DNA of 64,000 bases from Grifola frondosa (Eukaryota; Basidiomycota; Agaricomycetes; Polyporales; Grifolaceae). Shown piece by piece: positions 12,327 to 33,183 of this stretch. Every line of letters begins with the position of its first letter. The first letter of the stretch is position 1. Where the stretch lies: positions 3,410,001 to 3,474,000 of the forward strand of contig LUGG01000002.1 of NCBI GenBank assembly GCA_001683735.1, written 5' to 3'. Both the position numbers and the translations under genes were made by a program. The notes beneath the pieces were generated by a model. It saw only the letters and a program-made list of their open reading frames with translations. It ran no database searches and was not told where the DNA came from.

Positions 12327-13463
12327 TTGTACTACAATATAGCACAAACCCGCAAAACTGTTGTGAGTTAGCAGGTCAGGTTGTAAAATTGGGCTGTAAT
12401 ACAACGCTAGGCTGATTGTATTAGCTATTGTATTACAACAGTAGCATTGTAATACAATTAGGCTGCAATGTACTGTACCATTTCCATCAATTCGACATGT
12501 CACGGGTCACATGGCCTTGATTTGGTCGAATTTTTGGCGTCAGTCACTGGTCACATTGCTGACTGTCGAATCGAATTTTCATCTCAAAAAGTGCAAAAAA
12601 TTTCGATGGCTTCTGCGGAGCCAATTGGCTTAATTCTGACTGTATTTTTGTTAAAATTTGTTTGAAAATTTTCAGCTGGTCACGCATCACTGACTGAGTT
12701 GTCGAATCGGTCAGCCGTTTCGGCCATGTCACGCATCACAAGGGCTGTCGAATTGATAGAAATGGTACAGTATTACAACTAGGGCTGGTTGTGATATTTC
12801 TATAGTACAACCAGGTCTAATTGTAATATTGCATAAAACAATCAGGCCTCATTGTAATTCTAGATAATACAACCAGGTCTGGTTGTAATATTTGATAAAA
12901 CAACCAGGCCTCATTGTAATATTCAATAGTACAATCTGGTCTGCTTGTAATACTTCATTATTATAATCTCACCTGGTTGTATCATCCATATCTGGCTAAT
13001 AGGCTTCGGGGCAAATACCTGATTTGTCATATGTTGTGGAAACATACCGCTTTTGGTATGTTTTGGCTTCAGCCACCATATATTTTTCCCTCTATTGCTC
13101 CTTCAATTCTTCACCAATTCTCTTTATTCTGGGTGCATCTGAAAGCGATCATTGTGTACAGTTATATTATGTAAATACTTCAATACGTTATTCGAATTAA
13201 AACATACCATTCTAGGCAGTTACCCCAGAATGTTTTTCCGAATTCCTCCCTAAATATTTACCAAATCTCTCCATTCATTTATTACCCTTGTCGCATAAAT
13301 GTCACACTTAATGTTCTTGATTTATTTTGACAGAATATGCCATGAAAAATATACCATTTCTGGTGGGTGCAGGCTCAGCCACACCAGAATTCCTCCCCTT
13401 GCCCCTCCATCAGTTTTGCATGGAATTTCTTCATTTAACATTCCCCTTGCTCTTATTAATGTA
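12327..13463 (+). repeat. Left arm of B, outer part
   Basis: From 12773 to about 12985 it consists of six roughly 33-bp units, each carrying a small palindrome of the type ACAACCAGGYCTGGTTGTAAT. After these comes core sequence shared with elements A and C. It is interrupted by the MITE at 12473-12770 and ends at the Copia insertion. The right arm carries several more of these units, so the tandem block has changed length. Confidence 0.8.
12473..12770. mobile_element. TA-target MITE with CTGTACCATTTC ends
   Basis: A 298-bp insert in the left arm of B, with terminal inverted repeats of about 25 bp (CTGTACCATTTCYATCAATT and on) and a TA duplication (12471-12472 and 12771-12772). Removing it rejoins the arm in register with the right arm (CTGCAATGTA next to TTACAACTAG). 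Inside are several copies of a GTCACNNGTCAC-like motif. TA target and short TIRs suggest mobilisation by a Tc1/mariner-type transposase. Confidence 0.85.
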
Positions 13464-13558
13464 TGTTGTGCGAGGAGACCGCGGAACGTGTGACAGGACG
13501 CACGTGATGTGACAGAGTGCACTTGGACGTGCATACTTACCTTGTAAACACCTCAGTC
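13464..13558 (+). repeat. 5' LTR of the Copia element, first piece
   Basis: The first 95 bp of the 5' LTR, cut after CACCTCAGTC by the DNA transposon. The remaining 31 bp are at 19224-19254. Compared with the 3' LTR, this piece shows five substitutions, and all are C/T or G/A changes at CpG sites. Confidence 0.93.
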
Positions 13559-13708
13559 CAGCCTCCTTCCCAGGTGTCGGGGTGCAAGGTCAGCCACAGA
13601 CAAACCGACACAAACAAAAACCTTAATTCAAGCTGACCACACCCCGACGCCTGGCACAACTTGTTAGACACGTGAGGGCGCTTGGCGGATGAGGTGTTTG
13701 GAGCGCTG
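13559..13708 (+). repeat. Left TIR of the DUF6589-RecQ transposon
   Basis: 150 bp, matching the inverted right end at all but four positions. At each mismatch this copy has TG or CA where the right TIR keeps CG. The TIR also folds on itself: GTGTCGGGGTGCAAGGTCAGC near its outer end pairs with GCTGACCACACCCCGACGCC about 55 bp further in. Confidence 0.93.
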
Positions 13709-13818
13709 GGAGTTAGCGGAAAGAGCGCAGTAAGTTCAACGAGTTTTCCGCGAGGCTCACATGATGTTGCCTGTACATACAGATAGATACAGCTTCATTG
13801 TAGTAGCTTTGATACACA

Positions 13819-16538
13819 GTATGACTGAGATGCTGCCAATTTCTGACCGTCTCGAGAATGTCTCTCAAGCACTTACAGAGAATAACTTCACTATCTCGAC
13901 ATACATCAACCACTTGTGTAACACCTCACTAGCAAACACCCATCTCAGAATGCTCGAGTCCTATTGAACACACAAGCCGTAGATATCTGTAATGGGTGCC
14001 TCGGGATGCCTAATGCTGAATTTTCTGTAACCTCTTGGGCCATGGATATAGCAAAGATGGCGTTGCGACGAGACATTACAGAGCTGGCGAAGGTCAAGCA
14101 CGGTTTTCACTTCAATGCGTCAAAGGCGGCGGCTTCGTATCTAGAAGGTTCATTCATGCACGAAGCTGCTGAGAAGATGAAAACATCCTCACCGACATTG
14201 TGGGACTTCGTGCATTCCCTCTTGGACGCCAATGACTCGCGTCGACGAACAACTCCTAACATTGATTCGGACGTTGAGATGGAGTTGGAAGACAGAGAGA
14301 TGGACCTTGGGGATTTCGGTGGGCATGAGATGTCAGTGCAGGGGAATGTCGTTGGAGGGGATCGAGACTCAAACAATGCAGATGAACAAATAGAGAAATG
14401 ACGGCGGACAGCAGCTCGAAACGCCACTCTTCTAACGATTGTACGATCAGACTTTCTTCGCTCGTGTATTATCTAACAATACAAATAGAAAACTGTCATA
14501 ACTATCAGCATATTTCTGCAAAGCACGAACGAGCGGTGCAATTACCTCCAAAGTATCCTCGGGATATTCTACCACTCGACATCAGTGCCCGAGAAGGTGA
14601 TTGAAACACTTGCCCATGCAGGACTGTCAATCAGTCTATCTTTGATTCACAATGCAATCTCAAGCCTATCCCGAGGAGCCTCAGCTAAAATCAAATCAAC
14701 TATGCGATCACTCACAGCATCTTTCGCCTACGACAACTTCGATATCAACTTCAAAACGGCACAGCCTACCCTTGAACATCAATTGACATTCGTCAGCGCC
14801 ACGTCAGCAACAGCGATCCCGCTGTTTGGAGTTGATGATCCCAGCGTCCTAAGGTGTTCAGAAGCGTTCTGGCTTCAAGATCCATTGAATCCTGAACTAA
14901 CCGGCGGGGCATCAGCGCAATCGGGAATGGACGATACGAGAGGAATTTTCAGAGACCTTATGCGAGACGATGCGAAGAAAGCCCGAGAAGCGCGGTTGAG
15001 TCCATGGCTCATGCGATTTGCATGGCATATCCATGACATTCTCGTGAAGCACGGAGAACATTTTGGCCATCTCGAAAAAGAGCTTGAAGAGCCCGAGCCG
15101 ATTGATGTTATTCCACTGCATAAAACGTCGCAAGTACCCTGCCGAGCTATGAAAATAAAGCAGTCTACGACAGACGGCAATATCCAGGTGCTGGACAGTC
15201 TGTTTCAGCAAGGTGGGATAGGTGAATCAGGAGGAAAGGGATTTGCAGCGGAGTATGGAGATGTGGATATGTCGGAATGGGTGATATTTGTCCACGGAGA
15301 TCTGCTGACAAAGGAAAGAATCGATTCCGTTCAAGAATCGCGGGCAATCGAGGACTCACCGAAGCGCCGTTTTCAATATGTCGTCTTCTTGCCTGGTCTC
15401 TTCCACTATAAAATTGCATGCGCAGACGCATTTTGGCGCACCTGGGCACAGCCAAAAGAGGCACGAACAGATGTCAATAGCCTCTACGAGCATGTTGGTA
15501 TCTTGAGGCCTGACGAGACAGGTAAATTCGTCAGCAATCCCGGATTCAGGCGCGTTCACGATGTGATTCACCATGACGCCTGGGGTTCAATGCTGGACTG
15601 TTGGCGGCTCGAAGCAGAGGCACGTAATCCGGAATGGACCTCATTGAAAATCTTCTCCGAAAGCAAGCCTAGCTGGGACCTGATTACGGAAATGTCTGAA
15701 AGCATTGTAACAAAATATGTAGCGACAACGCCAAAATTGAGTGACTTACGGGATGAGCCGATGCAAGAACGCGATGAACAATTTGAAAACCAGTGTCTTT
15801 GGAACCGTGATGAATTGCTGTATATCGAACTGTGTCATGCAATGAACGCAGGCGATATTGGTCGAGTGGAAGCATCATTCATACCTTGGACCTACATATT
15901 CAAGGCGACCGGAAAGCATAAGTACGCATCACAAATCCTTCGCTTTATGAAAGATTTGAGGGACAAATATCCTACGGAGCTTCGGTGAGTATCATTGATC
16001 CTTTGGACATATAGTAAGTGATGAATAATGGACCTACAGCAAGATTATCCGTATGAATTGGCTTATCAATCCTACCGGCAAGCTGCATGCATGCCGTGGC
16101 ATTGATTGGCTCGTGGAGAGAAATAACCTATACACAAAGGTTAGTGCCAGCAATAATGAAGATCATTCATCTGAAATACTAAATGGTTCAATAGGTCATT
16201 CATGCCGGAGGAAGTTCAAACAAGACAATCGAGCATATCATCAAGGAATCGGTGTTGATTGAGATGTATCGAGAGTGTCATACCACGATCGAAAACGGGT
16301 TTATCTCGAACACCGCACAATCCGTCACGCACCTCCCGACATGGTCAAAACACTACGAAAACTGAATACAATACTCATGCGAACCAAGCCGCACTCCTTC
16401 ACTGCAGGAAGAAAGGCTGACTACTGCATCCCTGATAAAATTGCGGATGCTATGGACATGTTCCTGACAAATAAGGAAGTTCTGGTAGCAGATGAGGAGA
16501 ATATGGTGGTCGAGCCAGAAGATTTAGCAGATGACTGA
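13819..16538 (+). pseudogene. DUF6589-domain protein, putative transposase
   Basis: Likely start ATG 13819 (MTEMLPISDRLENV). Three introns can be placed: 14441-14488 (branch-like CTAAC), 15985-16039 and 16140-16194, all in consistent phase. Conserved blocks run in this order: SWAMDIAKMALRRD; KMKTSSPTLWDFV; an acidic linker; YLQSILGIFYHSTSVPEKVI; HAGLSISLSLIHNAISSLS; VHGDLLTKERIDS at about 15292-15330; FLPGLFHYKIACADAFWRTW; NWLINPTGKLHACRGIDW; HAGGSSNKTIEHIIKES; and a C-terminal TIRHAPPDM block. The GD in HGDLLT resembles the acidic motif of RNase H-fold transposases; this is inference. Breaks are a frameshift near 13960, TGA 14399-14401 (consistent with CGA to TGA) and a frameshift near 16300. 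Otherwise it is full length and little decayed. It faces the RecQ gene, 172 bp away. Confidence 0.75.
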
Positions 16539-16710
16539 GGGAGGTGGAAGACAGATGACACACGTACCGTAGCTACACTGGGTCCTGCCTACTAGGACAA
16601 TGTTTCCTTTAGCGGTGGTATGTTCTCCTGATTTGAACGAGATTTTGGCTGCCATTTTGGACACTTTTGGTTGCTAGCTAATGTATTCGTGTCAGTTTCG
16701 AAGCATAGAG
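16539..16710. other. Convergent 3' region
   Basis: The 172 bp between the facing DUF6589 and RecQ genes. A last short RecQ exon may extend into it: GTATGT near 16737 looks like a donor, and an acceptor-like CTAG follows near 16680. No separate feature is seen. Confidence 0.4.
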
Positions 16711-19010
16711 TCACATGAGAGACAATGACATACCAATATGGTCATGAGCCCCACACTTGCCGCATTTTCGACTCGCCTTTGTGACTGAGGGGGGAGTAGA
16801 TGATGCGGAACCAGATGCAATGGGAGGGAGTGGTGCAGATGTGAACGGAGAAGGTAGAACAGGTGCGGGAATATGGAGGCGAACGAGTTCTAAGATGCGT
16901 GGGCCATACTTCGAGGCATGACACCAATCTGTCTGCTCCTGTAGAATTTGAACAGTTGAGAGTTTGGAAAAGTGTGCGAGGTCAACGATACGAGTGAGGA
17001 GCCGATCGGATAATAGATATTGAGGCCCGAAGAAGTCGTCACCGTCCAGTTCCTCCTCCTCCATTTGCTTCTCGCGCCATGCCTTCAAACTCTTCTTGAG
17101 TCTGAGATCTGCATCATTCATGGTGTAGCTGGCCATCTTGATTTTGTTCTTGCCTCGCTTGATAATGGTTGCCGACATGACAACACTCTGAAATAGGAAG
17201 GCGTCTGGATTACACGCATCACAGCACAAGCGCGTCTCTCTACTTCCACAACGTCCTTGACAGTGACAACCAAATTCCTCTATCATCTATCCGTCAACAT
17301 CTTATCTATGCAATGTACCACCACTTACCATGTCTGTGATTCTCGAAGTACTCATCAGCAACCTTTCGGCGACAAATCTTGCGCTCCGCTGCATTGATAT
17401 ACACGTCCATGGCTGCCTTCTCGTAGTCGTCGCAAGACATGTGCTTGTATGAAGGAAGGTGTGTTCTGGTTGGTTGAGAGCATAGCGGCTGTGAGGATGG
17501 ATGAGTGCTGGACAGGGGTCGCTGAGCATCTCCTGTGCTATGACAGGTTCCAGGTATGCTTTGTCCATCAGCATTGTTCTCCATCTTCACCTTTACGACA
17601 TCATCTTCACTATCCCCATCTTCCTTGTTCATCCTGAGCAGTTGATTGCTTGACGACACTGTAAATTGAAGCCGTGGTTGTTTTTGAGCAACTTTTCTCT
17701 TCGGCTCTTCACGTTTTCGTTTCGATCCAGACGTTTGACAGGCAATCTCCTTTCCCTTGATCTCCTTTTCCCTTTTTTTCACTTCTTTTGCTTCCCTGTA
17801 GCCATCAAAGTGTTCTCGCTCCACGAGATATATCCCGATGGCCTCAAGCGCAGGGTCGCGTGCTCCACGTCCAAGACGCTGCATTAGTGTGCACAGGGAT
17901 TGCATATATCCCCACTGAACAATCAATACAATGTCGGGAATATCGAGACCCTATCCCGGTGTGTTAACAACAGCATGAGTATTTCAGATTTTGTTACTTA
18001 CCATCCCTGCGGCATCAGTGCAGACTATTCCCCAGATATCTCCTTTCTTTAGATCTTCTAGTTTGCTTTGACGAAACTCCTCACTCATACCAGAGTGGAA
18101 CCAAACAATTTTATGTCGGAGCGCCGCAGGTAATTGATGCCGTAGATAGGTTGTGAGCCTCTCCGCCTCCTTTCTTCTATTTGTAAACACCATAAATTTG
18201 GGAGGCGGAGACTCGGGTTCCATTTTGAGTACACGATCAAGATCTTGCATACTCTTTACGGAGTATTGCATCTCTTTTACGACGAGATGAATATTCGGGC
18301 GGTCGTTCGACAACCAAATGTAAGACACCGTGTCATGGCGCAGATTAAGAGTCTCGTGCACATCCTTTCGGATGAGCGGAGGTTGCGTTGCGGAGGCAAC
18401 ATGAATGTTGACATGCGGAGGCAGAAGCCAGTGAAGCAGCTTAGTCTGCTTGTACTCCGGACGGAAATCATCGCCGCCCCACTGGCTGATACAGTGGCCC
18501 TCATCGAAAGTGACCTGGAACAGCCGTGATGTGAATTTAGTGTCGCAGTAGAGGGTTCGAAATCGTTTGTCGGTCATAAGCATCTCCGGATTGACCACAA
18601 TGACACGATAATGAAGTGCCTTAATCTTCTGTAAATAGAACACATTATTAGAGTCACTTGACACATTATAGCTTTGTAATTCAATACCTTGAACACGGCA
18701 TCCGTTGCTGTTTCTGCTGTGATATTCACTGCATTGATACCGAACTGTCGCATAACCTCGGCAACATTTTTGTCACCCAGAATGTTTAGAGGCGTTACGA
18801 GAATCAGAATCCCGTTGTCATTGAAGAGAAGAGGTATCCAGAAGGTCAATGTCTTTCCGGAGCCAGTAGGAGCAATAGTGAAGACATTTCTTTTCTGCAG
18901 CTGTAGTAGGGCAGATTGAAGCTGGAATTTGCAAGGTGGAAAGCCCGTTTTTGTTTAACAACATCGCTCATTTCCTCAAGGCTAGGAATGGTATATTTAA
19001 GAGCAGACAT
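16711..19010 (-). pseudogene. RecQ-like ATP-dependent DNA helicase
   Basis: Start ATG at 19010-19008 (MSALKYTIPSLEEMSDVV). Introns are at 18629-18687, 17951-18001 and 17280-17328. In order: Walker A TIAPTGSGKTLTFW; motif VTPLNILGDKNV; NITAETA; RVIVVNPEML; Walker B FDEGHCISQWGG, with DEGH in place of the usual DEAH; VASATQPP; SNDRPNIHLVV; KFMVFTNRRKEAERL; a helicase C-domain with WFHSGMSEEFRQ, VCTDAAGMG and a QRLGRGARD arginine-finger motif. Then come a Lys/Arg-rich linker, a Cys-rich segment (CHCQGRCGS, RLCCDACNP) and a CGKCGAHDHIG zinc-knuckle-like tail. One A is missing near 18951 (KQK to TGFPPC), which breaks the frame. It sits inside the TIR element, so it is a transposon-borne helicase rather than a cellular RecQ. 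Its likely role, inferred, is DNA unwinding during transposition. Confidence 0.85.
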
Positions 19011-19064
19011 TTTCAATAGGAATGAGTTTCTCGAGTTTCCAGAAGGTTACGAGAAGTCAAAGGT

Positions 19065-19214
19065 CAGCGCTCCGAACACCTCATCCGCCAAGCGCCCTCA
19101 CGCGTCTAACAAGTTGTGCCAGGCGTCGGGGTGCGGTCAGCTCGAATTAAGGTTTTTGTTTGTGTCGGTTTGTCTGTGGCTGACCTTGCACCCCGACACC
19201 TGGGAAGGAGGCTG
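19065..19214 (-). repeat. Right TIR of the DUF6589-RecQ transposon
   Basis: Inverse of 13559-13708. It keeps CpG at all four positions where the left TIR differs, and carries the same internal hairpin arms. The target duplication ACCTCAGTC follows at 19215-19223. Confidence 0.93.
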
Positions 19215-19223
19215 ACCTCAGTC

Positions 19224-19254
19224 GAGTACTTCGAGACTGAGCTTTACCTTAACA
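19224..19254 (+). repeat. 5' LTR of the Copia element, second piece
   Basis: The last 31 bp of the 5' LTR after the nested transposon and its duplicated target (19215-19223), ending CCTTAACA. Together with 13464-13558 it restores 126 bp, the same length as the 3' LTR. Confidence 0.92.
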
Positions 19255-19428: not shown

Positions 19429-20264
19429 ATGGCGTCTTCGGTTCCGGACACGAAGATCCCAAACTTCACCGAATCTCAGCAACTTGATCGCACAAACTGG
19501 CTTGACTGGAAGGACCGCGTCACCCGCATATGCAAGGTGCGCAAGTCGTTCGGTCACCTCGATGGATCGAAAGGCCGCCCCACTGCAGTCCTCGCGGCCG
19601 ACGGTACCGGAGCCTACCAGCGTCGCACTCGGGGAAGCATGGGATGACGAGGATGAAGTATGCAAGGCAATTATGATTCTTCAATATCAAACACTTCCGA
19701 AGCTCCGGAGTCGCTGCCGATGGGAAGACCGCTGCCGAAATATGGAAGCAATTGAAGGACAAGCGTGAGCGTACCGACTCCGTATCTCTCATGAATGCTG
19801 TCGACCATGTCCGCGCGCTCAAGTACGTCCCCGGCACCGACCTCTACGCCCACTTCGAAGAGATGCACGCACGTCGCAGCACCGCGCTCGAGCTCGGTGC
19901 ATCACTCCCGGAGGAGCAGTTCTCAGTCATCCTCTGCAGATCGATGCCCCAGTCCATGCGATCCATCACTGTGCCACTTCTCGGCAGCACCGACCCCGAC
20001 CACGTTATTAGCACGATCACCACTCTCGTGGAGGAGGAGGCTCTTGCCACCGGAAACTCTCTCGATCCAATCCGCGGCATACAGGAACAAGCCTTCGTTG
20101 CGAACACCGCGAAGGCGGCACAAGGCCAACATCCGACATGCTCGTGGTGCATGGGACGCGGACACACCCGCGAGCAGTGCTACGTTGAGGGGGGCGTGCG
20201 GGCCAACAACCCGCACACTGGAAGGTGGTGCCCAAGGGTCGCAGAGGGTCACCCGCAGAGTTAG
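19429..20264 (+). pseudogene. gag: Copia gag
   Basis: Starts MASSVPDTKIPNFTESQQ and continues in three frames: to about 19640, then a segment with EAWDDEDEVCKAIMILQ, then from 19750 onward. The last part includes LMNAVDHVRALKYVPGTDL and ends in a CCHC zinc knuckle, CSWCMGRGHTREQC, as in nucleocapsid domains that bind element RNA. The N-terminal half matches gag-polyprotein domains of Copia elements (LDRTNWLDWKDRV). Two frameshifts break it. A short overlap with the next frame leads into pol. Confidence 0.85.
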
Positions 20265-23200
20265 CATCGAGAACGACCCACTCCGCGAACGTCGCCACTA
20301 CGGGAACCACGGCGGAAACGGCAGCGGCTGCAAGCGTTGCCGCTACGCAGGCCCACAAGGCGCATCTCACGACCAGAAATGAAGACCCCAAACCTGTCAG
20401 CGACCCGTTTAACTACCACATATTCCTCACGAACGCAGTTATTCCCGCTGACTACAAACCCGCCCCCAACTCGCGATGGACGGCACTCGCGGACTCGGGC
20501 GCCACGCACCATTATTTCACACAGCGTGCGCATTTCACTGACTACGTCGCCATAGAACCACGCGTCGGACACGCCGCTGGAGCAGACTCTACCTTCGCAA
20601 TAGTCGGTCTGGGCACAGTTCACGCGCAAGTCGAGGTTGGCGGGAAGACACAAACTGTCACTTTCCGCGACGCTGTGCACGCACCCGGACTGGCTACCAA
20701 CCTCATCTCGCTTGCCCGCATCAACCGCAGTGGCCGGCTCATCACGATGTACGACGGTGTACTGACGGTCTACGACCCGTCCGCTAAGCACCCAGTTTTT
20801 ACCGGCAAGCGACTCACCACGGACCTATACGAAGTCGTCCTCCAGCCTATATCCTCCCAGAACGTCCCCGCGGTCGACATCACTTACGACCCCCGTGCGC
20901 TCGCCGCACACGCTTTCGCCGCCAAAGGCACGCCGGCAGCTGTTGATATCGCCACATGGCACCGTCGCCTGGGGCACGTCAGCGAGCGTACTGTTCAACG
21001 AATGGCTGCCCAAGGTCTCGTTAACGGGCTCAACATCAAAGGGAGCGGCCCAGCGCCAGGAAAGTGCGAAGACTGCATTAAGGGAAAACAAACGCGGCAA
21101 CCCTTCTACCCAGCCGAAGCCGAAACCGAACCTGGTGAACGCGTGTACATAGATCTTATGGGACGCTTTCAGGTCCCCAGTCTCGGCGGCGCGGAGTACG
21201 CCCTAACATGCAATGACGGCGGGACCTCGTACGCAGTCGCCTATCCTATAGCGTCGAAAGCGGCTGACGTCACGCTCGCCTGCTTCCACAACTACAGGAT
21301 CATGCTGAAGACGCAAACCGGACGCGACATTCGACGCGTGCGGTACGACAACGGCAAAGAATTTGTCAACGCGACATGGGACGCGTATTTTGCCGAACAC
21401 GGAATAGTCGCAGAGCCTACCACACCATACACGCCGGAACAAAACGGCGTAGCCGAGCGTGGCCATCGCACCATCGGGGATCACACTCGGGCCATGTTAT
21501 TCGATGCAGGCATTCCCAATTTTCTCTGGGCTGAAGCACTTATGTGCTGGACATACCTCCAGAACATCACCTGTTCTGCTCGCCAGGATGGCATGACGCT
21601 GTTCGAACGTTGGAACGGGCACAAGCCCAATGTATCGCACCTGCGCGCTTTCGGGAGCGTTGCTTATGCTAAGATACCGACGCCACGCGCAAGAAGCTCG
21701 ATCCGAAGTCCACACGATGCATAATGGTGGGCTATACCGAGGATGCCAACTACCGCCTATAGGACCCCACCGACGGACCACACGGCCGCGTGTTTCGGGC
21801 ACGCGACGTAACGTTCGAAGAGGGCCCTGGGCACCGCACCCTAACAGCGGATGGTGAACGCACATACGACGTAGGAGCGAGTCTAGACGCAGCTACAATT
21901 GCCAATCCGATCCCTGTCACAACCGTCGAGCCAGCCCCGCCGTCAGCGAGCACACAACCCACGCCCACTGCACGCATTGAGGACATCGCAGACAATGACG
22001 ACGCGCCACCAGCAGCCGTCCCCCCGCCCGCGCCTCTACGTCGCTCGACGCGCACCACTAAGACGAGCAAAGCACTCCAGCAGTCCAAGGATGCACTACA
22101 GCACGAGAGAGAGGCGGCACTGAAAGGGGCAGCCTGGGCAAACGATCGCATTCCCGCCCAAGCGGACCAGGGGGAGCACTTGCAGAGCACCCCACCGCAG
22201 GACCGCGCCGCAGCGTACGTGGCCCTACTTGCAGCCACTGACCCCAAAACAGGCGAGACGTTCACGGGCGGCGAGACTCCCATGACCTACAAACAGGCGA
22301 TGAGGGAGGACGCGATATGGGCACCGGCGATGGCGAAGGAGATCGACGGTTTGCTCCGCATCGGTGCTTGGGAACTTGTGCCTCGGACTCCGGAGATGAA
22401 CGTAGTTGGATGTAGGTGGGCTTACGCGCGCAAACACGACGAGACAGGCAAATGGAAGCCCAAGGCCCGGTTGGTAGCGAAGGGATTCCATCAAATCCCC
22501 GGCGTCGACTACTTCGAAACGCACGCGTCAGTTGTGCGTTTCGAATCCCTGCGTACCATCCTTGCCACGGCGACGTACCACGACATGGCCATGGGCCAGG
22601 ACGACGTCGAGAAGGCCTACTTGAATGCCACGCCCCAGGAGACCATTTACATGGAGCAGCCTCCTGGCTTTGAGTCAGCTGAGTACCCTGACCACGTATG
22701 CCTTATCTTACGTTCCCTCTATAGACTGATGCAGTCGGGGAACGACTGGTGGAAGGACCTTGACGTTGCCTGGGAGGACCTAGGTTTCGAGCGGTCCCGA
22801 GCGGAAGCGGATCGAGCGTGATGCGGACGCGCGACGGTCGCGAAATCTAGCGATCTCGGCGACCTACACCGATGACATTACCTCTGTAGCCACGACGGAC
22901 AATGGCCTGGCAGTCGCACGCCGTGATATTGGAGCCCGCTACCGCCTCAGTGGAGGGGAGAACTCCGGTTCATGCTCGGAGTGGCCGTCGAACGAGATAA
23001 GAAAGCTGGGACGATGAAACTCAGTCAGCGGAGCTACGCCGAACGTGTCCTGCAGCGTTTCAACATGCAAGACTCGAACCCAGTTATCACTCCTCTCGAA
23101 CCCGGGCAAAAGTATTCTAAATCCACTGAGCCGACGACCCCGAGGAGGCTCTCGAAATGGCGTCGATCCCATACCGCGAGGCGCTCGGGGCCATCATGTA

Positions 23201-23852: not shown

Positions 23853-23978
23853 TGTTGTGCGAGGAGACCGCGGAATGCGTGACAGGACGCACGTGATGTG
23901 ACAGAGCGCACTTGGACGCGCGTACTTACCTTGTAAACACCTCAGTCGAGTACTTCGAGACTGAGCTTTACCTTAACA
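23853..23978 (+). repeat. 3' LTR of the Copia element
   Basis: 126 bp, from TGTTGTGCGAGG to CCTTAACA. It is uninterrupted at ACCTCAGTCGAG and so gives the empty target site of the nested DNA transposon. Five differences from the 5' LTR are visible, all CpG transitions. Confidence 0.93.
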
Positions 23979-26930: not shown

Positions 26931-29900
26931 ATGGGATTCATCTGTCGTGGTTGCAAGAGACAGTTCATCAAGGAACAAGGCCTCAAGGTTCATCACCTTA
27001 GTTGCAGGCCGTACCGACAACTTGCTCATGGTGGAACGGAAAAGGAATGACAACAGGCCAAGTAATCCAGCGCAGGAATGAAGAGGTCAAAATCTGCCAT
27101 ATTGAAAATGAGAAAGCTGCGGAAGCTGAGTGACTGCGGGCACAAGAAGCACGCGAATATGAAGAGATGCATATAAATGTTTATATATGCATGCATACAT
27201 TCTGATATTTCTACAAATAGGCTCAAGCTCTTGATGCTGAGGAGCCTGCAGGATTTTTGAGCAGAGCAGGGTGCAAACGCCGTGCTCCCAAGGCTCTGCA
27301 AGACATGCTGCCCACACAGTTGCGTGGACTACCTGCCACATTGAAAGACCCCCTCCCAAGCCTCCCAAATGCTGTGCATGTGCCCACAGCCCCCCCCGAG
27401 CCATCTCTGCCACCTCTTGCTGAATCTCCACCTCCCCGCCTCACTACGACACATCCCTGAATCATTTTGGTCTCTTTCGCCATTTCTTCATCAGACCACG
27501 TTCAGACCCGGTGGAAGCGTAGTCCAGCTTGTCATTTGCAGATGCGCCCATGCATGCTCGTCCCTCTGCAAATTCAACATCTCAGGACTCCCTTTGTGGC
27601 TTCGGATATTCGATATCTCAGATGCTCAGCATGGCTAAGACACATGTTTACCACCCTTTCCTCAATACCACAGTCTTTCGCCTCATGTGCTGGTACTATG
27701 GCTCTCCACACAAATCTATTGCCAACCTTCAGAACCTAGTCAACGACATTCTACGGTGCACCGGATTACAACACTCAAGATCTTGCTGGGTTCAGTGCGA
27801 CACGTGAGTTGCAGCGCATGGACAAATATGTGGACAACACTGCATTCTCCACTCGAGATGGGTGGCATGAAGCAACAGTCAAGATCAACTTCCCAAGGAG
27901 CACGTGAGATACAACGATGAAGCCTCTGCACCGGAATACGAGGTCAAAGGGATCTTCGTGTGCCCCCTTCTTGAGGTGATCAAGAGCGTGTTCCACGACC
28001 AGTCCGCATGCGAGTTCACATTCATGCCATATCAACTCTTCTGGCAACCCGGCTCTCCTTCTCCTTCCACTCCCAAGCCACCTCCTGAGCAGATTTACTC
28101 AGAAACCTTCGACTCTGATGCCATGTTGGAGGCTGATGCAGAGATCCGAGTGCAACCTTGTCAACCCGATGACACCGAAGATCTTGAATACGCCGTTGTG
28201 CCAATACTGGTTTGGTCGGACTCTATGGACCTTGCAAGCTTCGGAAGTGCATCTCTTTGGCCCATTTACGCATTCTTTGGGCCACTTTCCAAGTACGCAC
28301 GGGGAAACCTAGTAGCTTTGCTGCACATCACTTGGCGTACATTCCAAATGTGCGTATTGTGTTCCTGTTACAGTGGGATTGATGCTCACTCACTTCTACA
28401 GCTGCCAGAAGGGTTCACAAAATTCTACCAGAATATTTACGACTCTCCTCCATCGGTGGCTGTACGAAAATTCTGCAAACGTGAGCTCATGCATCAAATT
28501 TGGCTTCTCATCCTCGACCCGGACTTCATGTGGGCCTACATCCACGGTATAGTACTCAGGTGTGGAGACATCATCTGCGCTGGCTCTTCCCCAGGTTCTT
28601 CACATATTCTGCTGACTACCCGGAAAAGTACGTTGGCGTTCACTCTTCGCATTGCACACTGATTATCTATTCCAACAGAGTTCTATTGGCATGTATCTGC
28701 TATCTTGCTGCGTGCCCAGCCCGGATTGTCACATTAAGAAGAAGGACATTCCAGGCATGGGCACTGCAGTAGATATAAGGCGTCATGTGAAGAAGCGTGA
28801 GGACAATGGCCCCTCAACTACACTATCAAGAATGCACGCCGCCAAGTCTTCAAGCATGGTATCCCCATAGAGGGCCAAGCCATGAAGCATGTGCTCGACC
28901 CATTGTCAATTACTCCGACGCTTGTAAGTTATTATTACCAGCTGCATATTCTTACAAGTTTATGCTAACATTGTATAGAGTGCTTTCTCTACATGCCTGC
29001 GAGAACACGGCTTCAATCACTATGGATTATTCGTCCCAGACATGTTGCATGAGTTCGAGCTCGGAGTCTAGAAGGCCATCTTCACCCACCTCCTCCGGCT
29101 TCATATTGCAGTAGGCGCGGACTCTATTCAGGTCTTGGATGCACGGTGAGTTCGCTTGTATTCACTCTTATTTGCAGGACTGATTTTGAACAGGTTCGCA
29201 CAAATCCCGACCTTTGGGCGCGACACAATATGGCACTTTGGCTTCAATGTTTCCGCTATGAAAAAGCTCACCACAAGAGACTTTGAAGATATATTACAGG
29301 TGTGTACTTTATCTGATTTTTCTACCTAAGCTAATGAATACGGGCCCAGTGTATTATACCTGTAGTTGAAGGGGTATTCCCACAAAAACACAACCGGATC
29401 ATCCTTGACATGCTGTTCGACCTCTTCGTTTGGCACGCCTACGCTAAACTACGCTTGCATGCGGATTCCACCCTGACTCTCTTCAGCGAGGCGATCAAAG
29501 CACTGGGAGTGAGCGTGAGGCTCTTCAAGAGAGTCATTTGCTCGGCATACATCACCAAGGAGCTCCCGAAGGAGACTGCTACACGTCAACGCCGTTCCGC
29601 TGCACTTGCTACCAAAGGCAAGTCCAAGGACACCAATGTCAAGACTGTTGCATGTCAGGCAATGCTCAACCTCATCACGTACAAGTGGCATCAGCTCAGT
29701 GACTATGTGGTGACCATTCGGTGCTTCGGAACCACAGACAACTATAGCACGCAGATTGTAAGTAACTCAAGTACCTGTTGTGTATGACTCCTGAATAACA
29801 GCCTCCTTTCAGGGTGAACTTGAACATCGCTGGGTCAAAAGATTCTACGGTCGGACAAATAAGAATTTCCGCTTCGGCATGCAAATCGCCCGTCACCAGC

Positions 29901-32317: not shown

Positions 32318-33183
32318 GTGAGGCAAATACCGGACGGTTTCCTTTCGCGTAAAGATTGCCTTATTACGTCAACTTATACCTTTCAGACAATTCCTCATGT
32401 GCATGAATTGGTGAAGTATTAACTTCTCAACCTGGGTGAATATCAGCCAGGAAAGCAAGGGGAGATGAATATTCATTGTAGTTTGTGACTCTGTACTGTA
32501 GATAACATCAAATAGTACATTAATAAGAGCAAGGGGAATGTTAATGAAGAAATTCCATGCAAAACTGATGGAGGGGCAAGGGGAGGAATTCTGGTGTGGC
32601 TGAGCCTGCACCCACCAGAAATGGTATATTTTTCATGGCATATTCTGTCAAAATAAATCAAGAACATTAAGTGTGACATTTATGCGACAAGGGTAATAAA
32701 TGAATGGAGAGATTTGGTAAATATTTGAGGGAGGAATTCGGAAAAACATTCTGGGGTAACTGCCTAGAATGGTATGTTTTAATTCGAATAACGTATTGAA
32801 GTATTTACATAATATAACTGTACACAATGATCGCTTTCAGATGCACCCAGAATAAAGAGAATTGGTGAAGAATTGAAGGAGCAATAGAGGGAAAAATATA
32901 TGGTGGCTGAAGCCAAAACATACCAAAAGCGGTATGTTTCCACAACATATGACAAATCAGGTATTTGCCCCGAAGCCTATTAGCCAGATATGGATGATAC
33001 AACCAGGTGAGATTATAATAATGAAGTATTACAAGCAGACCAGATTGTACTATTGAATATTACAATGAGGCCTGGTTGTTTTATCAAATATTACAACCAG
33101 ACCTGGTTGTATTATCTAGAATTACAATGAGGCCTGATTGTTTTATGCAATATTACAATCAGACCTGGTTGTATTACCTAGTA
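32318..33183 (-). repeat. Right arm of B, inner part
   Basis: Near-identical inverse of 12773-13463 plus 23979-24182. It contains the uninterrupted sequence CTTGCTCTTATTAATGTACT (reverse strand) that proves the Copia target. It ends at TACCTAGTA, where Helitron 1 begins. Confidence 0.85.

Follow-up and report, generated by a model that had tools for sequence, protein, structure and literature searches.

What kind of mobile element interrupts a long terminal repeat (LTR) of a Copia-type retrotransposon in the mushroom Grifola frondosa, and which of its two genes moves it? The question arises from a 64,000-nucleotide stretch of DNA (assembly GCA_001683735.1, contig LUGG01000002.1, positions 3,410,001 to 3,474,000), which we term the window and in which an insertion at 13559-19214 holds just two genes in convergent orientation, one for a DUF6589 protein and one for a RecQ-like helicase. 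Annotation lists DUF6589 as a family without known function. We conclude, with a probability of roughly 86%, that the insertion is a DNA transposon of the AcademH type with a DDE transposase; the assignment of that role to DUF6589 is well supported, in part by a predicted fold.

The ends of the element were fixed to a single base by alignment of its inverted arms, located in raw form at 13552-13708 and 19065-19221, and by comparison of the flanks. The outer 150 bases of the two arms are 97.3% alike on alignment and start with CAGCCTCC, and the same 9-mer, ACCTCAGTC, lies on both flanks. When the flanks are joined, they match 23853-23978 at 121 of 126 bases, unbroken over the junction and with a single ACCTCAGTC, as in an empty site. 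As a control for chance, an exact 9-mer together with at least 17 of 20 matching termini was found in none of 1600 shuffled flank pairs. The 150-bp terminal inverted repeats, the 9-bp duplication and the empty site in an LTR, all claimed in a preliminary description of this DNA, were thus confirmed to the base. Within the left repeat, positions 10-26 and 82-98 form a 17-base inverted pair (15 of 17 bases matching, starts 72 bases apart); a similar internal pair was looked for in the terminal repeat of a related element on contig C8, and none was found there. The features of the element in the window are the following:

13550..13558, no strand: left 9-bp target site duplication, ACCTCAGTC (flank comparison)
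13559..13708, plus strand: left terminal inverted repeat, 150 bp, starting with CAGCCTCC (arm alignment)
13568..13656, plus strand: 17-base inverted pair within the left repeat, which might serve for transposase binding
14042..16365, plus strand: DUF6589 gene with introns, encoding the 689-aa protein P0001 (start and stop set by eye)
14489..15988, plus strand: main DUF6589 open frame, the proposed DDE core, with motifs YDNFDI, HGDLLT and GDIGRVE
16263..16538, plus strand: DUF6589-like C-terminal sequence, in a different frame from the end of P0001 (by eye)
16711..19010, minus strand: RecQ-like helicase gene with introns (ends by eye)
19065..19214, minus strand: right terminal inverted repeat (arm alignment)
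19215..19223, no strand: right 9-bp target site duplication (flank comparison)
23853..23978, plus strand: empty target site, in the uninterrupted LTR of the Copia-type element, with one ACCTCAGTC

The interrupted host sequence was also delineated: 13464-13558 plus 19224-19254 on one side, and 23853-23978 on the other, look like the two 126-bp LTRs of a Copia-type element, with 5 mismatches between them, one split by the transposon, and rve and RVT_2 frames lying between them at 20189-22821.

Profile matches bore out the two facing genes that had been proposed from the letters alone. The frame 14489-15988 matches DUF6589 (PF20231) with an E-value of 2.1e-75 and a score of 254 bits, where the cut-off is 27. 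It belongs to the annotated Grifola frondosa protein A0H81_02890 (P0001), with 100% identity over the query. On the minus strand, frames within 16711-19010 match DEAD (PF00270; 5.3e-10) and Helicase_C (PF00271; 6.5e-8), both above their cut-offs, as well as recQ_fam (TIGR00614) at 1.3e-28 and 100 bits, which is below the curated cut-off of 219.8; the product also matches RecQ, WRN and BLM chains in PDB. Its motifs comprise APTGSGKT, DEGH and QRLGRGARD, followed beyond the core by a Cys-rich stretch and, at the C terminus, by CGKCGAHDH. Both genes of this copy appear to carry frame breaks, for which assembly errors are a possible source: the C-terminal DUF6589-like frame is out of register with the end of P0001, and the first helicase frame (from 19010) differs in frame from the minus-strand open reading frame starting at 18954, with no intron evident by eye. 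Since both genes show such breaks, the copy in the window may have lost the ability to move itself, and the "complete" transposon of the preliminary description is complete in its ends but apparently not in its genes.

A search with P0001 gave 696 relatives at E <= 0.001; the 120 listed are all DUF6589 proteins, and wherever an organism is named among them, it is a mushroom-forming fungus. A protein search for long or animal relatives named no animal among the best 120 of 345 listed, which were otherwise fungal or metagenome proteins, and in the viral contigs of IMG/VR 68 pattern matches yielded no relative. Among 7989 candidates scored, a single protein, P0121 from Paramarasmius palmivorus, combines DUF6589, DEAD and Helicase_C in one annotated chain of 1568 aa, which is either a real fusion or a merged gene model.

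We then examined the rest of the Grifola frondosa genome. The PF20231 profile gave 34 matches, grouped into 14 DUF6589 loci, and the helicase search 14 matches at 13 loci, 11 of which have a DUF6589 match no more than 5 kb away. The two helicase loci standing apart are C2:3179k and C32:206k, the latter less than 1 kb from a copy of a DUF6589-element end. Of the 14 DUF6589 loci, 11 were searched for ends (all except those on C26, at C2:575k and at C21:136k), and at eight of these both ends were recovered, flanked by a 9-bp duplication that is exact. All eight elements hold both genes, convergent by the strand of the matches:

window 13559-19214
C8:1574668-1582982
C9:311645-318202
C10:633220-639277
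C10:983683-989736
C3:1941409-1947448
C3:1743881-1753176
C20:541181-547449

The search for ends required a 9-mer, hence the controls by shuffling and by cross-pairing; when the left 9-mers of the eight elements were paired with the right 9-mers of the others, no match arose in 56 combinations. The ends of the C8 element can also be read with an 11-bp duplication, one base less per end. Inner repeat blocks of the C10, C3 and C9 elements, tried as ends, showed no duplication, the true ends being seen with wider flanks. The elements at C10:633k, C3:1941k, C3:1743k and C20 agree at about 97-99% along most of their length, yet their duplications differ, which marks them as independent and fairly recent insertions from a single family. 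The recurrence of the pair, together with the signs of selection given below, supports the earlier view of the helicase as a mobile-element protein.

Three side observations concern further relatives. The DUF6589 copies L009 and L010 (C21:136092-137429, plus strand, and C21:140150-141487, minus strand) have identical scores and lie inverted about 2.7 kb apart, as either a palindromic duplication or an assembly artefact. About 110 kb upstream of the window element, L061 (C2:3313785-3317488) has the full left repeat at 85%, its outer right repeat being unmatched and neither gene being traced by tblastn at E 1e-3. The family end motif also occurs with one mismatch at C2:582404-582423, about 3 kb from the decayed DUF6589 locus C2:575290-579379, probably as part of a remnant element.

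Beyond the full-length elements, the genome contains numerous short copies without either gene. A 20-base end motif from the family of C10:633k, C3 and C20, allowed up to 2 mismatches, occurs 130 times, compared to once for its reversed control. Among the matches listed of these 130, at least 24 pairs face each other at a spacing of about 660 bp; of these 24, 22 carry a 9-bp duplication that is exact and two do not. Eight further facing pairs, with CAGGCTCC ends, comprise seven with exact 9-bp duplications and one with a single mismatch, and of two short copies akin to the repeat in the window, C21:427526-428242 has an exact 9-bp duplication and the other does not. Overall, short copies of 249 to 908 bp have an exact duplication in 30 of 34 cases tested, the remainder being L101 (one mismatch), L102, L105 and L106. 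Together with the eight full elements, these bear out the expectation of further copies with 9-bp duplications in the source genome. Cross-pairing the 9-mers of 26 short copies produced no match in 650 trials, and the 33 duplications compared are all different, with no strong target preference. The termini of the elements are CAG or TAG; the end pattern of the CAG group is unspecific at one mismatch (82 matches versus 42 for the reversed control). One 663-bp short copy, C3:1752388-1753050, is inserted with its own exact 9-bp duplication near the end of the full element C3:1743881-1753176, which belongs to the same family.

Both genes show signs of purifying selection. The comparison used older families: the two C10 elements are about 72% alike at the DNA level and those on C8 and C9 84-87%, and in the sense frames of both genes the ratio of nonsynonymous to synonymous substitution rates (dN/dS) is below 1. 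For the C10 pair it is, for example, 0.11 in the helicase frame starting ELVAKKHR and 0.02 in the DUF6589 frame with KCGDV; between C8 and C9 it ranges from 0.05 to 0.23 in three helicase frames and from 0.08 to 0.48 in the DUF6589 frames, with one at 0.48. As the frames were assigned by eye, dS is saturated for several of them, and control frames on the opposite strand are at times also low (about 0.1-0.25, others being above 1), we take this test as supportive rather than as proof.

The proposal that DUF6589 is a transposase, with HGDLLT as a possible catalytic site, draws on these copies and signs of selection, and further on its predicted structure. The fold prediction suggested in the preliminary description gave an AlphaFold2 model (predicted local distance difference test score, pLDDT, 86) with an RNase H-like core and a large helical part ahead of the last acidic residue. 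Its best structural matches are DDE transposases, with Hermes at the top and the P element, ISCth4, Tn5 and RAG1 also among them. In this predicted transposase fold, D372 of HGDL sits directly after a strand, and D183/D186, D372 and E562 are compatible with a DDE triad in the model, each of them being conserved in 47-49 of 50 homologues. Sequence profiles against PDB and Pfam matched DUF6589 to no DDE family, and the fold evidence therefore depends on the predicted model. Against Pfam at E up to 1, P0001 gave DUF6589 alone, with no MULE transposase domain (PF10551; PMC8290104), in line with the first impression that the protein is not MULE-like; nor was any MULE or hAT family present among 25 of the 27 Pfam families listed for the 50 homologues.

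To which class, then, does the element belong? The superfamily, called unclear at the outset, can now probably be named from the helicase type and the 9-bp duplications. One Academ lineage has a fusion with the XPG nuclease; the lineage of interest here is another. Fungal Academ copies contain PF00270 and recQ_fam domains, owing to which they are often mistaken for host genes (PMC6416283); AcademH duplications are 9 or 10 bp, a length that the authors of that work suggest is linked to the helicase (PMC10045372); and AcademH is reported from Basidiomycota (PMC10799480). We file the element as a probable member of AcademH because its RecQ-type helicase, 9-bp duplications and basidiomycete host match these accounts; a helicase match is present in each of the eight elements with ends. 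AcademH is called low-copy (PMC10799480), whereas short copies are numerous here; no structural difference was found, and widespread putative non-autonomous Academ insertions are described from Marasmius oreades (PMC8290104). Two situations that the preliminary description named as refuting its reading do occur: the short copies lack both genes, and DUF6589-helicase pairs without detectable ends exist on C7 (one candidate matching at 11/20), on C12 and at C21:140k (within the 6 kb searched there). We read the former as non-autonomous and the latter as decayed.

The alternative that survives best, although we consider it unlikely, is a separate superfamily in which the DDE transposase DUF6589 has no kinship with Academ and the RecQ-like helicase was gained independently. 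DUF6589 is unnamed in the literature searched, and its best fold match is a hAT transposase; however, the PF00270 and recQ_fam domains of published fungal Academ elements are matched by the helicase in the window, and the AcademH duplication length is identical. Were DUF6589 nevertheless distinct from Academ, fungal DNA transposons would have recruited a RecQ-type helicase at least three times (in Kolobok, Academ and DUF6589 elements), a corollary that we likewise regard as doubtful.

A Mutator-like or hAT element, as duplication length or fold alone might suggest, is very improbable. Mutator-like elements do share 9-bp duplications and long inverted repeats with the present ones, and the predicted fold appears to resemble Hermes and the P element in its RNase H-like core and sizeable helical portion. 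Nevertheless, the absence of MULE and hAT families from the profile results above speaks against either, no sequence profile is common to DUF6589 and the hAT or P-element transposases, hAT elements duplicate 8 bp and the present ones 9 bp alongside a helicase, and a common fold is no proof of membership.

KolobokH, which is also a published fungal lineage encoding a RecQ helicase and is found only from fungi (PMC9587614), has next to no chance of being the right class: Kolobok elements, KolobokH included, duplicate TTAA (4 bp) and have 5'-RR...YY-3' ends (PMC9587614), in contrast to the 33 different 9-bp duplications and 5'-CAG or 5'-TAG ends here, and duplication length and termini rule this identity out. 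Scarcely more credible is DUF6589 as a passenger or accessory protein with the DNA moved by the helicase or a host transposase. In favour of this, short copies move without either gene in cis; against it, DUF6589 is present in all eight elements with ends, shows signs of purifying selection and has near-invariant acidic residues in a transposase-like predicted fold.

For the AcademH-type transposon, a mechanism can be sketched from the fixed ends and 9-bp duplications, the many insertions within a single genome, a recurrent convergent gene pair and short copies with the same ends. DUF6589 protomers would bind the long inverted repeats, where the internal 17-base pair of the repeat in the window could allow two transposase contacts per end. 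D183 or D186, D372 and E562 would then free the ends and join them to the target strands with a 9-bp stagger, and gap repair at the staggered target would leave the 9-bp duplication. The RecQ-like helicase might act on the ends by unwinding or remodelling their DNA, or help to process the gaps after strand transfer, and the short copies would be moved in trans by the proteins of full elements.

The pairing of a transposase with a helicase is not in itself a discovery, as fungal Academ and AcademH elements with such helicases are published (PMC6416283, PMC10045372). The kind of element is thus probably already known, and the new part is likely the identification of DUF6589 as a DDE transposase. 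In the literature searched, 5.39 million papers, the term DUF6589 does not occur, so that its transposase role is not in print there under that name, and no paper joins RecQ, transposase, terminal inverted repeats and Agaricomycetes. If read as a DDE transposase, DUF6589 names testable catalytic residues, and its relatives shift from apparent host genes to transposon genes; the short copies with exact 9-bp duplications offer a donor set for probing the role of the RecQ-like helicase in transposition.

Two other features of the window were recorded. The stretches 12806-13463, which abuts the Copia LTR on the left, and 32516-33173 are inverted copies, 99.5% alike over about 659 bases, that include a tandem array with 31-base spacing, of which related copies lie near 43 kb. 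An open frame at 27871-28662 shows a weak match, under the cut-off, to the Plavaka transposase family (PF18759, E 2.3e-4).
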